DNA of 40,434 bases, taken from the IMG/VR virus record IMGVR_UViG_3300043427_001395, positions 1 to 40,434 of that record. One strand, given 5' to 3'. Position numbers and translations under genes: made by a program. This DNA comes from a virus. Of the stretch, positions 34,829-40,434 are shown one piece after another (positions within the stretch are counted from its first letter, which is position 1; each line of letters opens with the position of its first letter). The notes under the pieces are model-generated. The model did no database searches. It was given only the letters and a program-made list of their open reading frames with translations, and had not been told where the DNA came from.

Positions 34829-35085
34829 CCCGCAACCGCATCAACATCGACGTCGATGACCGCATGGACGCCTGGATCAGCCTCACCGCCAAGGTCGCCG
34901 GAGTATCCAAAACCGAAGCCGCTAGAGCACTACTGGCCCATATGCAAGACAATCACCTGGCCGACCCTGTAGACATTACACGTCGGGTTGAAACACATCG
35001 GAAGTCGGCGAATCAGGCGCGAGGCCAGCGCCAAAAGTCTCACCGCTTGGATCAACAACAATCTGTTCCAACACATCAGCAGTAG
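34825..35085 (+). CDS. Ribbon-helix-helix-like protein
   Basis: An 86-residue protein whose first 48 residues (RINIDVDDRMDAWISLTAKVAGVSKTEAARALLAHM, in pieces) match a CopG/Arc-type ribbon-helix-helix DNA-binding domain. The polar Gln/Arg-rich C-terminus lies over the 3' end of the convergent integrase-like gene (110-bp overlap), so it may be a run-on tail. It could repress the neighbouring int-like gene. Confidence 0.6.
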   Translation: MTRNRINIDVDDRMDAWISLTAKVAGVSKTEAARALLAHMQDNHLADPVDITRRVETHRKSANQARGQRQKSHRLDQQQSVPTHQQ

Positions 35086-35917
35086 TCACATCCGAAACAG
35101 GGTTACGCAAACCAAGCGTTTCCCTAACCCACCGATCAGTCGCATGGCCCATCCATTTAGCGATAACTGCCGGTTCAACCCCACGTTCGTACTGACGTCG
35201 CACCGCAGCACGACGCAAATCCTGCACAGTTACCGGCCTACCAAGAGCAGTTGACGCAATACGACTAATTTGAACAGACGCATAATCAGAACGACGATCA
35301 GCAGACAAAGCAGTAGCTGAGCCACCCAAAGACGTGACAGGCGAAAAAACAGACGACAAACCAAGCGTCAACAACTCGAGCCGCCCAGTAACCGGGATTT
35401 CCCGCAATGTTCCACGCCTAGACGTAATACGAACCAGAGTCCTACCCTCCCAAGTTCGTACATCTGTCGGCGTAACACGCAAAGCTTCGGCACAATCCAA
35501 ACCACAAAACGCCACCATTCCAGCCAACCATTCCCAACGCGGCCCCTTAACCCCAGCAGCAGTCATGACAGCTACCAAATCATCATCCGACAAAGCAACA
35601 AAACTGATGTCGGAACGCACGCGTTTAACACACTTAGCCTCACGGAACCCATGACCAGCAATAATCCCCTCGAACAACAAATGGTCGAACCATTGCCGGA
35701 CACCAGAAAAACGGGAATGAACAGACGTCGGCGTGTATTGCAAAGCCAACCAGTCAGCAAACTGTTGAGCGTTCACAAAAGAACCGTCCAAAGCATGAAT
35801 ACCAGAAGCATCACAGAACCGCTGCCAAGTCATGATGTCTTTCTTGTATCGACGCCGAGTATGAATCGACGGCTGCGACCCCAAGAACTTCGCAGTAGCA
35901 GAACGAACAGACGACAT
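34976..35917 (-). CDS. Tyrosine-recombinase-like protein with degenerate active site
   Basis: A 313-residue protein with the two-domain layout of phage integrases: an N-terminal SAM-like core-binding domain (residues about 1-95, RRRYKKDIMTWQRFCDASG) and a catalytic-like domain (about 105-275). Landmarks are present but altered. Box I reads FCGLDCAEAL, so Arg is replaced by Asp141. The HxxR box reads QDLR (Gln232, Arg235). MGH keeps His258. No Tyr occurs at the expected place about nine residues later. It may be catalytically inactive, or use a Tyr elsewhere. The start at 35917 follows AGGAGG. Confidence 0.75.
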   Translation of the reverse strand: MSSVRSATAKFLGSQPSIHTRRRYKKDIMTWQRFCDASGIHALDGSFVNAQQFADWLALQYTPTSVHSRFSGVRQWFDHLLFEGIIAGHGFREAKCVKRVRSDISFVALSDDDLVAVMTAAGVKGPRWEWLAGMVAFCGLDCAEALRVTPTDVRTWEGRTLVRITSRRGTLREIPVTGRLELLTLGLSSVFSPVTSLGGSATALSADRRSDYASVQISRIASTALGRPVTVQDLRRAAVRRQYERGVEPAVIAKWMGHATDRWVRETLGLRNPVSDVTTADVLEQIVVDPSGETFGAGLAPDSPTSDVFQPDV

Positions 35918-36539: not shown

Positions 36540-36706
36540 GGTCGATCTCCTTCGTCGTCGAGCCGGGTCCGAAGTGCGGCGACCTCGCGAACGATCTCCC
36601 GAAGGAGATCGCCCACGAGATCCCACGCGTGCCGATCTCGACCGTCGGCGAGCGCGATCTCGATCGAGACGAGAGCACGTCCGACACGGTCGAGATCGAG
36701 GCTCAC
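36536..36706 (-). CDS. Small amphipathic helical protein
   Basis: A 56-residue protein from GTG 36706 with a regular amphipathic pattern (LVSIEIALADGRDRH; LVGDLLREIVREVAALRTRLDD). It overlaps the winged-helix gene upstream and the membrane-protein gene downstream, each by four bases (GTGA). The perfect coupling makes it likely real although short. Unknown function; it may be a coiled-coil subunit. Confidence 0.55.
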   Translation of the reverse strand: MSLDLDRVGRALVSIEIALADGRDRHAWDLVGDLLREIVREVAALRTRLDDEGDRP

Positions 36707-37107
36707 GAGTCGGCTCCCGTCGAGTCGTCGAGCAGTCCGTCGAGTGCTACTCGTGCGTAGTCGAGCGCGAGCCGGACGTCGTCGAGCGCCCGGACGAGCC
36801 GATCTCGCTCGACGTTGTCGAGTGTCCGTCGACGGACCGTCGAGGTCGGGACGTGCTCTCGACGACGGACCGTCGAGGTCTCACGCTCGACGTGTTCGGC
36901 GAGAACGTAGACCGACCGTCCTCGACGCTTCGTCGAGGTCCGGATCACCTCTCCCGTCCCCTTGAGGGTCGCGAGACGTGCGCTCGCCGTGTTCTGGTCG
37001 AGCCGCGTTCTCGACGCGACCTCGCTCGACGTGGCGCCCCGTTCTCCACGTTCCCGAAGGACGTCGAGGACGAGCACCCGTCCCGGTTTCCGTGTGCGTG
37101 TTCTCAT
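36703..37107 (-). CDS. Winged-helix regulator (MarR/ArsR-like)
   Basis: A 134-residue protein from ATG 37107, preceded by AAGGGGGTGAAC. Residues about 10-68 form a winged helix: VLVLDVLRERGERGATSSEVASRTRLDQNTASARLATLKGTGEVIRT, then the wing STKRRGRSVYVL (split). The C-terminal third is a basic, helical tail (LVRALDDVRLALDYARVALDGLL). It is the only evident DNA-binding protein of the island and may control the operon. Immunity repressor is an alternative, since no other repressor is obvious. Confidence 0.7.
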   Translation of the reverse strand: MRTRTRKPGRVLVLDVLRERGERGATSSEVASRTRLDQNTASARLATLKGTGEVIRTSTKRRGRSVYVLAEHVERETSTVRRREHVPTSTVRRRTLDNVERDRLVRALDDVRLALDYARVALDGLLDDSTGADS

Positions 37108-37127
37108 GTGTTCACCCCCTTTCGTTC

Positions 37128-37664
37128 TCACAAGATCACCAACCCACCGCACGACCGAAGAAAGGACGTGAATCCCTCGACGGTCTCGCGCTCGAAGGTG
37201 AACAGCGTGTCCTCGTGCTCGTGACGGCCGAGACCGTCGCACACGTCGCACGTTCCGACGTCCCGGCCGAGAGCGATCCGTCGAGTCTCGTCGAGGACGA
37301 TCGACGGGAGATCGAGAAGACGACCGATCTCGTCGGTCCGAATCCCGGTCCCTTCACACGTCGAGCAGTCGACGAGGTCGAGGCTCGCGTAATGGTCGAG
37401 CATCGCCCGGATCGCTTCGTCGATCTCTCCGGTCGAGAGATCTGCGGCGAGCGCGTCGGCGATCCGTCGAGTCGTCTCCGCGTCGAGCCGGACCGGATTG
37501 TCGACCGGCCGAAGACCTCGACCGATCGTCTCGTGATCGAGAAGCTCCGGGTGGGCGAATCCGATCCACGTCCACAGTCGAGGCCACGCTCGACCCCGAA
37601 CCCTCGCGTGATGCGCGTCGGTCGCCGGGTCGAGCGCGACGAGGTCGATGTAGGTCTCGATCAT
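37128..37664 (-). CDS. Protein with two CxxCxGxG zinc motifs, partner of VWA protein
   Basis: A 178-residue protein. The N-terminal 100 residues are mixed alpha/beta with a helical middle (LDAETTRRIADALAADLSTGEIDEAIRAML). CSTCEGTG and CDVCDGLG (about residues 110-145) are DnaJ-type zinc half-sites that together can bind one zinc, separated by an insert of about 30 residues. DnaJ zinc domains bind unfolded protein. ATG 37664 overlaps the VWA stop (ATGA); an upstream ATG at 37679 lies inside the VWA gene. It suggests a substrate adaptor for the ATPase-VWA pair. Confidence 0.68.
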   Translation of the reverse strand: MIETYIDLVALDPATDAHHARVRGRAWPRLWTWIGFAHPELLDHETIGRGLRPVDNPVRLDAETTRRIADALAADLSTGEIDEAIRAMLDHYASLDLVDCSTCEGTGIRTDEIGRLLDLPSIVLDETRRIALGRDVGTCDVCDGLGRHEHEDTLFTFERETVEGFTSFLRSCGGLVIL

Positions 37665-39181
37665 CGTCGACCCCCCCATACTTCGGCGACGCGTGCGTCG
37701 GTGAGACCGTGAGTCAGGTTCCGTGCGTACTTCGCCGGGAGACGTCCCGTCTTCGAGCGTCGGAGAGCGTCGATCGCGTCCTCGACGTCGTCGACCATGT
37801 GAACCCCGTGGCGTCCGACGTCGGCGATGATCGAGAGCCGATCTGCGGCCGAAGCGAAGTCGTCCGTCGAGTAGGTGACGTACCCGTCACATACCCACAC
37901 GATCGGCTCGCTTCCTCGACGGACCGAGAGCGCGTAGTCGAGCGCGGGACGGTCGCAACCGTTCCCACCGTTCCCTTCTCGCAACCTCGACGCGATCCGT
38001 CCTCGATCGGCGAGCACCCACACGTTCGGGACGCCCGGTCGTCGAGGACGCGTCGAGTAACCGATCACGAGACACCCGGCCGACACCTTCACGATCTCTT
38101 CGATGTCGCGCATCGAGAGACGCATAGAGCCGGACTGATCGATCAGCACGATCCCGCCGGTCGAGCGAACGTCACGAGAGAAGATGCGACGGTCCGGGTC
38201 CGTGAGAAGGAGATCGATCCGTCGAGGGACGATCCCGACGTCCGTCCTCGATCGGCGGCGTCCCATCTCGTTCGGCGCCCACCTGTTGAGAGCGACCGAT
38301 CGGTCCCATACGAGAGGCGCCCACGTCGTCGTGGTCGACGTCTCGACGACCTCGTCACCGGGAACGTCTGGAAGGACATCGCCGGGACTGTTCGAGCCAC
38401 CGTCGAGAAGCGCGTCGATCGTCTTCGCGAGGTTCGCCGTGAACGTGAACCCGCGAGGGACCACGACCGTCTTCTGCTCGACGTTGGCGTCGGCCCGGTA
38501 CTCGTCGAGATCCTCGTCGAGCCGGATCGGTTTCGTCGACGCGATCGCCGATCGCAACGCGACACCGAGTCGAGCACCGCGTCCCTTCTTCCCGATTCGT
38601 CCCCGGAGACCGTTCGAGCGTGCGTCGACGACGATCGATTCCTCGACCTTCGAGACGAATGAGGCGAGACGATCGGCCGTGTCCGGATCGATGTCCCGGA
38701 CACCCTTCACGAAGTCGGCGTGTCCCTTCGTGAACATCGTCCCGATCGCCATCTCGACGAGCGCCCGGACTGACTTCGATTCGGCGACCCGTCGACCCAT
38801 CGTCCGTTCCGATCCGTCGACGAGAGCGTCGAGATCGAACCCGGCCGACATCGCGAGCAGATTCACCCGGACTTCTTCCACCGCTCGAATCGTCGAGCCG
38901 GTAATCCCGAGCACCTTCTCGATCTCGTCGAGGTTGTCCGGCGACACCTTCGCGTGCGTCATCTCGTGCGCTCGAATCACGCGAGCCGACATCGAGTCCC
39001 CGACCGGGACGCGCATCCGTCGACGATCGAGATCGGTCCACGCTTCACCACGAACCGGGAGACCTTCCTCGACGATCCACGGTCCGGCTTCTCGATCTCG
39101 ACGTGTGATCGCTTCGGGGAACGCGGAGACGGGACGCGTTGAGCGTCCCGTCCCCTTCGATCCGTTCGAGATCGACGTCAC
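37661..39181 (-). CDS. HExxH metallopeptidase-like and VWA-domain fusion
   Basis: A 506-residue protein. Residues 67-76 (ARVIRAHEMTH) carry an HExxH zinc motif, with VEEVRVNLL (101-109) as a possible third-ligand helix, as in CobT-like and DUF2201-like phage proteins. The C-terminal half is a von Willebrand factor A domain: MIDAS IDQSGSM (347-353), GNGGNGCDR (403-411) and VWVCDGYVT (428-436, Asp432). VWA proteins of this class work with a MoxR/CobS ATPase to remodel or metallate targets. GTG 39181 overlaps the ATPase stop by four bases. The HExxH and VWA pairing in one chain is notable. Confidence 0.82.
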   Translation of the reverse strand: MTSISNGSKGTGRSTRPVSAFPEAITRRDREAGPWIVEEGLPVRGEAWTDLDRRRMRVPVGDSMSARVIRAHEMTHAKVSPDNLDEIEKVLGITGSTIRAVEEVRVNLLAMSAGFDLDALVDGSERTMGRRVAESKSVRALVEMAIGTMFTKGHADFVKGVRDIDPDTADRLASFVSKVEESIVVDARSNGLRGRIGKKGRGARLGVALRSAIASTKPIRLDEDLDEYRADANVEQKTVVVPRGFTFTANLAKTIDALLDGGSNSPGDVLPDVPGDEVVETSTTTTWAPLVWDRSVALNRWAPNEMGRRRSRTDVGIVPRRIDLLLTDPDRRIFSRDVRSTGGIVLIDQSGSMRLSMRDIEEIVKVSAGCLVIGYSTRPRRPGVPNVWVLADRGRIASRLREGNGGNGCDRPALDYALSVRRGSEPIVWVCDGYVTYSTDDFASAADRLSIIADVGRHGVHMVDDVEDAIDALRRSKTGRLPAKYARNLTHGLTDARVAEVWGGRR

Positions 39182-39912
39182 GACAGTTCCTCGATCTTGA
39201 GAGCGTCGAGGACCGTCGTCGACTGTTCGCCGAAGACGAGCGACGCGGCTCGATCAACACCGAGTTTCGCGCGGAGACGATCGAACTCGAAGAACGCGCG
39301 GAGCGAGAACCGGCGACCGGGATCGGCGTCGGCGCTCGACGAGGCGAACGATCGAAGATCAGCCGAGAGACGTTCGAGAGCCTTCGGGTGCGGCCGATCG
39401 ATCCGGATCGCGATCGGGAAACGATCTCGAAGAGCGGTCGGAAGATCGCCCATCCGTTCGAGATTCGTCGTCATGACGACCGAGAACCCTTCACGCGGTC
39501 GCACAACTTCCTTCGTGATCGGATTCGTCCACGAGGCCGATTCCGGAGAGTCCGTCATCGCGAGCAATTCCGAGAGCACGTCACCCGACGCCTTGTCGAT
39601 CTCGTCGAGCACCGCACGACCCCCGACCTTCCACGCGTCGACGAGCGGCCCGTCATTCCACGCGAACATCCCCGACTCTGTCGGCTTCATGTGACCGGTC
39701 ACCGACGCGGTCGTCATGTCCTCTGAACACACCACACGAAACGCGTGACGCGTCACATTCCCGAGAGAGTCCGTCGAGGACGGGACACCGAGGGACATTC
39801 CCCCGAACGTCTTCCCCGTCCCCGGGGGACCGAACAGAATCAAACGATCGACGCCCGACGCGAGAGCGTCTGCCACGTCCTTCCAACACTGCGGCGTTTC
39901 CACCGTTTCCAT
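39178..39912 (-). CDS. MoxR/CobS-like AAA+ ATPase
   Basis: A 244-residue single AAA+ module. Walker A GPPGTGKT (28-35), Walker B AVLDEID (100-106), sensor-1 MTTN (147-150) and arginine finger ALRDRF (160-165) are all intact. It is slightly shorter than typical MoxR because the C-terminal lid is compact. The order ATPase then VWA, with overlapping codons, is the conserved layout of MoxR-VWA and CobS-CobT systems, where the ATPase hexamer drives remodelling through the VWA adaptor. The start follows AGAAGGGAAC. First gene of the island operon. Confidence 0.9.
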   Translation of the reverse strand: METVETPQCWKDVADALASGVDRLILFGPPGTGKTFGGMSLGVPSSTDSLGNVTRHAFRVVCSEDMTTASVTGHMKPTESGMFAWNDGPLVDAWKVGGRAVLDEIDKASGDVLSELLAMTDSPESASWTNPITKEVVRPREGFSVVMTTNLERMGDLPTALRDRFPIAIRIDRPHPKALERLSADLRSFASSSADADPGRRFSLRAFFEFDRLRAKLGVDRAASLVFGEQSTTVLDALKIEELS

Positions 39913-40307: not shown

Positions 40308-40434
40308 GATCGAGGGACTCGACGTCCGGCTCGACGATCGGCGGCTCGACGTCGACGGACTGTCCCGGCGATCGAGCGCCGCTCGACTCGACTCGACGAC
40401 CGGAGATCCCCACCGACCGGGACCGAGATCCCCC
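40308..40434. repeat. Terminal direct repeat, right copy (circular junction)
   Basis: Exact copy of positions 1-127. It falls inside the TCGA-rich segment, so that segment runs without a break across the junction and is not an end artefact. Bases 40308-40434 should not be counted twice in genome length. Confidence 0.95.

Follow-up and report, generated by a model that had tools for sequence, protein, structure and literature searches.

A phage gene pair of a MoxR-type ATPase and a VWA protein with a predicted zincin-like domain, and its chromosomal relatives near lexA

ATP-driven remodelling of protein complexes by MoxR-VWA pairs is supported by established work (PMC7159879). In RavA-ViaA, NorQ-NorD, CbbQ-CbbO and midasin, the AAA+ protein goes with a MIDAS-bearing VWA, and the partners are described as chaperone or activase cofactors. 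One MoxR and vWA core is also common to the ternary conflict systems (VMAP, iSTAND, FtsH; PMC7159879). Among phages, the jumbo phages of group 2.2 carry a MoxR gene adjoining the gene of a vWA protein whose N-terminal domain is described as a metallopeptidase (Iyer et al. 2021, PMC7824862), and CobS/CobT-like genes occur in cyanophages, pelagiphages, Gordonia and Microbacterium phages and the isolated phage DSL-LC01.

The gene pair studied here is encoded by virus record IMGVR_UViG_3300043427_001395, whose whole length of 40,434 nucleotides is referred to as the window. Compared by published description, it is like the jumbo-phage pair, consisting of an AAA+ MoxR protein and a vWA protein that has a predicted metallopeptidase domain at its N-terminus; this architecture has been described before, and the window family is one that has no Pfam or NCBIfam model. 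Different from the jumbo-phage pair, it belongs to a 40-kb temperate actinophage-type genome, has a replication-side context and possesses chromosomal relatives. The zincin-like domain sets it apart from RavA-ViaA and the other chaperone pairs. It shares its core with the conflict systems, and no VMAP, iSTAND or effector partner was recognised among the identified recurrent neighbours. The phage CobS/CobT-like genes resemble the window pair in the CobS-like ATPase and in the layout of the partner, in which an N-terminal HExxH is followed by E[E/D]xR and a C-terminal VWA. However, the CobT-like partners are 560–790 residues in size, compared to about 440–520 in the window family, and share no blast-level similarity with the window VWA protein; in the cyanophages examined, the two genes are separated and in another order.

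The window starts and ends with an exact 127-base direct terminal repeat (1–127 and 40308–40434); with identical ends, the record was therefore read as complete, and it looks like a genome of ∼40.3 kb. It also encodes terminase, portal, major head protein, RecT, HNH, WhiB and integrase, and represents a temperate tailed phage; WhiB points to an actinobacterial host. The operon is located between the integrase and the terminase, within the phage genome, in the integrase-side region, and is oriented against the structural genes. Its features are as follows.

39178–39912, minus strand: MoxR/midasin-type AAA+ ATPase, 244 residues (AAA_5, phrog and midasin matches)
39178–39181, minus strand: GTGA overlap between the stop codon of the ATPase gene and the VWA start codon (sequence)
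37661–39181, minus strand: VWA protein, 506 residues, GTG start, predicted N-terminal zincin-like domain and C-terminal VWA (phrog_33218, AlphaFold2, BFVD)
37661–37664, minus strand: ATGA overlap of the VWA stop and the second in-frame ATG of the double-CxxC protein (sequence)
37128–37679, minus strand: double-CxxC zinc-ribbon-like protein, 183 residues from the first ATG, likely start 37664 (CxxC conservation, AlphaFold2)
36703–37251, minus strand: winged-helix (MarR/HTH_20-like) protein, likely start near 37107 (MarR_2, 1.7e-4)
34976–35917, minus strand: tyrosine recombinase (integrase), bordering the operon region (phrog_1, 4.5e-14)

The three minus-strand ORFs that the sequence-only reading had described as coupled by four-base overlaps were confirmed. 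From its first ATG, the double-CxxC gene overlaps the VWA gene by 19 bases; its second ATG (37664) agrees better with the starts of the homologues and is likely the one used, and with this start the GTGA and ATGA overlaps make the description a fair one. The fourth gene encodes the winged-helix protein, which is 71% identical in the nearest relative, L010, at the same position; all four genes are present in L010 in unchanged order. Host-flank sequence was considered as the source of the operon and ruled out, as the operon in L015, the contig of L010, is joined unbroken to terminase on one side and to integrase on the other.

The tetranucleotide TCGA occurs 151 times between 36001 and 40434 of the window (4.4 kb), ∼10 times the expectation, and rises sharply just past the integrase. 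L015 has this island too; it is possibly a mobile cassette or the product of selection on the sequence word.

Scanning of viral contigs yielded 226 stretches with relatives of the VWA protein, of which 80 were retained as loci; genome contigs contributed 51 loci. Among the 140 loci whose VWA gene has an intact start, 139 have the ATPase gene immediately before it in the same orientation. The pairing is obligate, and the ATPase and VWA genes are the firm core of the operon; the –4 overlap between them is also present in most chromosomal loci. The pair represents a widespread, unnamed family, of which some bacteria carry chromosomal copies. The VWA protein matches phrog_33218 (5.5e-43), annotated as of unknown function. 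No model in Pfam or NCBIfam meaningfully covers the 80 VWA members, NCBIfam giving noise matches; noise was also all that was returned by searching PDB sequences with the VWA profile of 80 rows and, at E 10, by a search of 50,697 isolated-phage entries, where no VWA protein match was found. In PADLOC, none of the tested VWA proteins matched and the ATPase reached IetA at the P-loop level only, which leaves the earlier suggestion of a role in anti-phage defence without family support.

The motifs of the two proteins on which the following analyses are based are listed below.

39808–39831, minus strand: Walker A GPPGTGKT, residues 28–35 of the ATPase (sequence)
38954–38968, minus strand: HEMTH (HExxH), residues 72–76 of the VWA protein, predicted zinc site on predicted helix 64–79 (conservation)
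38873–38878, minus strand: E102-E103 (EExRV), candidate third zinc ligand on predicted helix 95–112 (conservation)
38126–38140, minus strand: MIDAS DQSGS, residues 348–352 of the VWA protein (conservation)

The ATPase matches AAA_5 (2.9e-17, above the cut-off), phrog_16448 (7.7e-32) and the CobS-like phrog_249 (6e-15). Its closest PDB match is midasin (9e-26), with NorQ and CbbQ also being kin. Walker A and B, sensor N150 and the arginine region D163-R164 are invariant or nearly so in 118 homologues. With this conserved AAA core and the adjoining VWA partner, the assignment as a MoxR-type ATPase holds.

Conservation in the VWA protein was analysed in 81 non-redundant homologues of <80% identity. 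The MIDAS is intact, as D348, S350, S352 and D432 are present in 81 of 81 homologues each, and so are N407 and D410. H72, E73 and H76 are found in 80, 81 and 80 of the 81 homologues, and E102, E103 and R105 in 80, 79 and 80, respectively; these residues are conserved alike in phage and chromosomal copies, and HExxH greatly exceeds chance occurrence. One search pattern included HExxH, whereas 40 rows could not have come from it; 39 of these 40 retain the motif, and ascertainment is therefore not the cause of the conservation. Of the two exceptional rows in these counts, one has a gap that is masked sequence. The other is a divergent viral homologue (L113:3700-5076), in which both histidines of the motif are replaced by Arg and the MIDAS remains intact.

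The AlphaFold2 model of the VWA protein, built with 80 sequences, has a mean pLDDT of 88.5. Three strands (36–40, 48–50 and 55–59) precede three helices (64–79, 84–91 and 95–112), with HExxH on the first helix and E102-E103 on the third. Such a layout of strand, HExxH helix and acidic helix is expected for a gluzincin-like domain, and the N-terminal domain is thus predicted to be of zincin-like topology. Whole-chain Foldseek against PDB did not find a match to any known zincin; the best matches are VWA-type (integrin A-domain and TFIIH subunits), all weaker than E 0.001. Among the viral models of BFVD, the top match is at 1.8e-24, followed by phage CobT/vWF-like proteins. Taken together, the HExxH and MIDAS motifs proposed in the sequence-only reading are real and near-invariant, and the HExxH motif would sit in a metallopeptidase-like fold; DUF2201, one of the families named there for comparison, has no counterpart here, as none of the 80 VWA members matched DUF2201_N (PF13203) at E≤0.1.

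Kinship to phage CobS/CobT-like pairs, also anticipated in that reading, is supported by the phrog_249 and BFVD matches and by profile alignment. The HExxH-EExR segment aligns with six actinophage CobT-like proteins at E 1.1e-4, and with four cyanophage or pelagiphage 'peptidase'/CobT proteins at E 0.0047 and an hhalign probability of 7.5%, which is weak alone. Both sets retain HExxH and, further along, a Glu or Glu-Asp and an Arg, and the kinship of the cyanophage and pelagiphage proteins appears persuasive through this common motif order, not through the alignment score. The 'peptidase' label of cyanophage CobT has been called a mistake (PMC8651126). In the four cyanophage and pelagiphage CobT proteins (L014:2089-4443, L232, L233 and L234), HExxH and E-D-x-R are invariant; judged from these motifs, the annotation may be right for the N-terminal domain, and HExxH reopens the annotation of cyanophage CobT.

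The CobS-family match of the ATPase and the CobT-like proteins returned by the structure search of its partner would also suit a cobaltochelatase helper (CobST), which inserts cobalt together with host CobN and raises B12 for ribonucleotide reduction, a role proposed for viral CobST (PMC8651126). However, CobN (PF02514) was detected in none of 22 records, comprising the window and 21 bacterial genomes with the pair, while control matches were obtained in 5 of 14; the CobT family itself (PF06213), another comparison suggested earlier, does not match the VWA protein. With CobN undetected in every carrier searched, a cobaltochelatase role is unlikely, and the CobST helper as a whole seems to us highly improbable.

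We place the pair, with good confidence, among AAA+/MoxR-VWA systems with a zincin-type domain. As for its activity, we favour a phage AAA+/co-chaperone pair of the MoxR-VWA kind that probably clips its clients in an ATP-driven manner through the metallopeptidase domain of the VWA partner. The ATPase would form a hexameric ring, on which the VWA domain would dock through the MIDAS metal, or the same metal would grip an acidic residue of the client. Remodelling driven by ATP would then present the client to the zinc site, where it would be clipped; it is the added zincin-like domain that suggests cutting of some clients. If this is true, an energy-driven metalloprotease is encoded by a large set of environmental phages, probably including many actinophages, and the enzyme is missing from every curated protein-family library searched. 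A pure remodelling chaperone, activating or disassembling complexes like RavA-ViaA, NorQD and CbbQO, with HExxH in a peptide- or zinc-binding fold free of protease activity, would be in keeping with the PDB kin of the ATPase (midasin, NorQ and CbbQ) and with the MoxR-VWA pairs studied to date, which are chaperones or activases (PMC7159879, PMC3893208). On the other hand, HExxH with its would-be catalytic Glu is kept in 80 of 81 homologues, as would be expected of a functional enzyme; a zinc site with a structural role only could do without E73, and the sole member that lost the motif (L113) changed both His at once. We thus consider this chaperone reading rather unlikely next to client clipping, although proteolysis may be dispensable in places, as the loss in L113 suggests.

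Which clients would be clipped was approached through gene neighbours. In the viral loci, a replication-initiation-like protein is recurrent (66 of 105 loci); other named neighbours are primase/helicase, a DUF1599-like protein, metallophosphoesterase and HslV-like peptidase. None of the ten recurrent neighbour families examined is structural. Tentatively, the clients could be early-phase proteins that act in DNA replication, repair or host control, rather than virion proteins or the corrin ring; phage early genes are a mixed bag as a guide to clients. Virion-protein maturation, one of the jobs first suggested for the operon, has been proposed in print for the MoxR and metallopeptidase-vWA architecture of jumbo phages (PMC7824862), and MoxR-vWA chaperones assemble complexes in other systems (PMC7159879). 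With the MoxR-vWA proteins of Acidianus two-tailed virus as the model, the pair would then be an assembly or maturation chaperone-protease that remodels and trims structural proteins. The integrase-side position of the operon and its orientation against the structural genes, the replication-type neighbours elsewhere and the chromosomal homologues, which are located in a lexA cluster devoid of virion genes, all disfavour this role, and we judge it unlikely. HslV/proteasome-like peptidase genes are repeatedly found close to the pair, in L062 (9388-10029) and 23 other viral loci, and one is found in L235 (6245-6934).

The double-CxxC protein belongs, as a divergent member, to a widespread phage family with the consensus MGMDVYGxNPxSExGEYFRNNVWWWRPLW and two CxxC pairs. 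Both CxxC motifs are invariant in 69 homologues, but only the second forms a full CxxCxGxG, so that the earlier description of a double CxxCxGxG stands for the cysteine pairs and not for the complete repeats. Against DnaJ Cys-rich (PF00684), the protein scores 16.9 bits, below the cut-off of 32.7, and has two CxxC pairs, not four CxxCxGxG repeats. Its AlphaFold2 model (pLDDT 93) has no significant fold match in PDB, the DnaJ Cys-rich domain being at E 2.6; judged from this model, 'DnaJ-type' appears to be a motif label and not a fold.

The genes overlap or abut in the window and L010, as would be the case in a true three- or four-gene machine whose double-CxxC protein selects the substrates. 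Of 38 long contigs encoding the VWA protein, 14 also have the Cys family, and of 39 long Cys-family contigs, 16 encode the VWA protein; co-occurring mutually, the pair and the Cys family therefore share phage lineages. However, a Cys gene close to the pair was counted in 11 of 80 loci only, with 7 of these 11 having it on the opposite strand, and it adjoins the pair only in the window and L010; elsewhere the two are kilobases apart, as in DSL-LC01, where the Cys gene is ∼6.5 kb from that phage's own CobST-like pair. None of the 51 bacterial-genome loci has it in the flanks either. We conclude that the Cys protein is not a dedicated subunit of the pair, and hold the larger machine to be quite improbable; together with the winged-helix protein, it represents an accessory or passenger gene of the phage lineage, not a core subunit. 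The motif reading made from sequence was good, whereas its three-subunit machine, with a DnaJ-type substrate-binding subunit, is not supported.

The chromosomal branch at lexA, the DNA-damage regulator gene, was unexpected. About 30 genome loci from Acidimicrobiia-like MAGs (including L217, L199, L190, L194 and L225) have the chromosomal pair followed by LysM, nrdR, PIG-L and dinB. In the 18 loci where lexA was identified, it is divergent and either adjoins the pair or is set off by transporter genes. The titles of the carrier MAGs are unreliable as taxonomy, some bins being named Bifidobacterium, Acidobacteria or Saccharibacteria. Of the 21 genomes searched, 20 have one copy of the pair and the remaining one has an extra weak match; the pair was found in 3 of 118 genomes sampled from the order of one carrier. 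A quick, unrooted maximum-likelihood tree groups the 22 chromosomal rows together (SH-aLRT 82), within diversity that is largely viral. Any direction of transfer between phage and chromosome read from such a tree is a suggestion, and one clade of chromosomal copies is possibly the result of domestication. It is conceivable, though rather doubtful, that an Acidimicrobiia-like lineage domesticated an ATP-driven metalloprotease pair from phages a single time, between lexA and LysM-nrdR-dinB, that the pair serves a DNA-damage or cell-division response there, and that phages use the same machine on that pathway. The copies by lexA offer a route to testing what such pairs do in a cell.

LexA-box-like sites are present in the lexA-side intergenic region, but in 19 of 28 loci the 170 bases preceding the ATPase contain none, and these loci include some with transporter genes between lexA and the pair; any SOS (LexA) control of the chromosomal pair is therefore putative. 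Direct linkage to ribonucleotide reductase, suggested by nrdR, was rejected, with the RNR gene located ∼105 kb off on the same contig or on a different contig.

In 9 freshwater actinobacterial loci, the pair is followed by a protein of 401–411 residues (L176:9399-10634, L211:577-1782); the L211 copy has no Pfam match and the L176 copy no PDB sequence match. In the L183–L225 chromosomal loci, one conserved element, CGACCGTT, is located 27–79 bases before the point where the ATPase domain match begins and is exact in 21 of 28. It is absent from 106 viral loci, has a background of 0.12 per kb, and remains with the pair where transporter genes part the pair from lexA.
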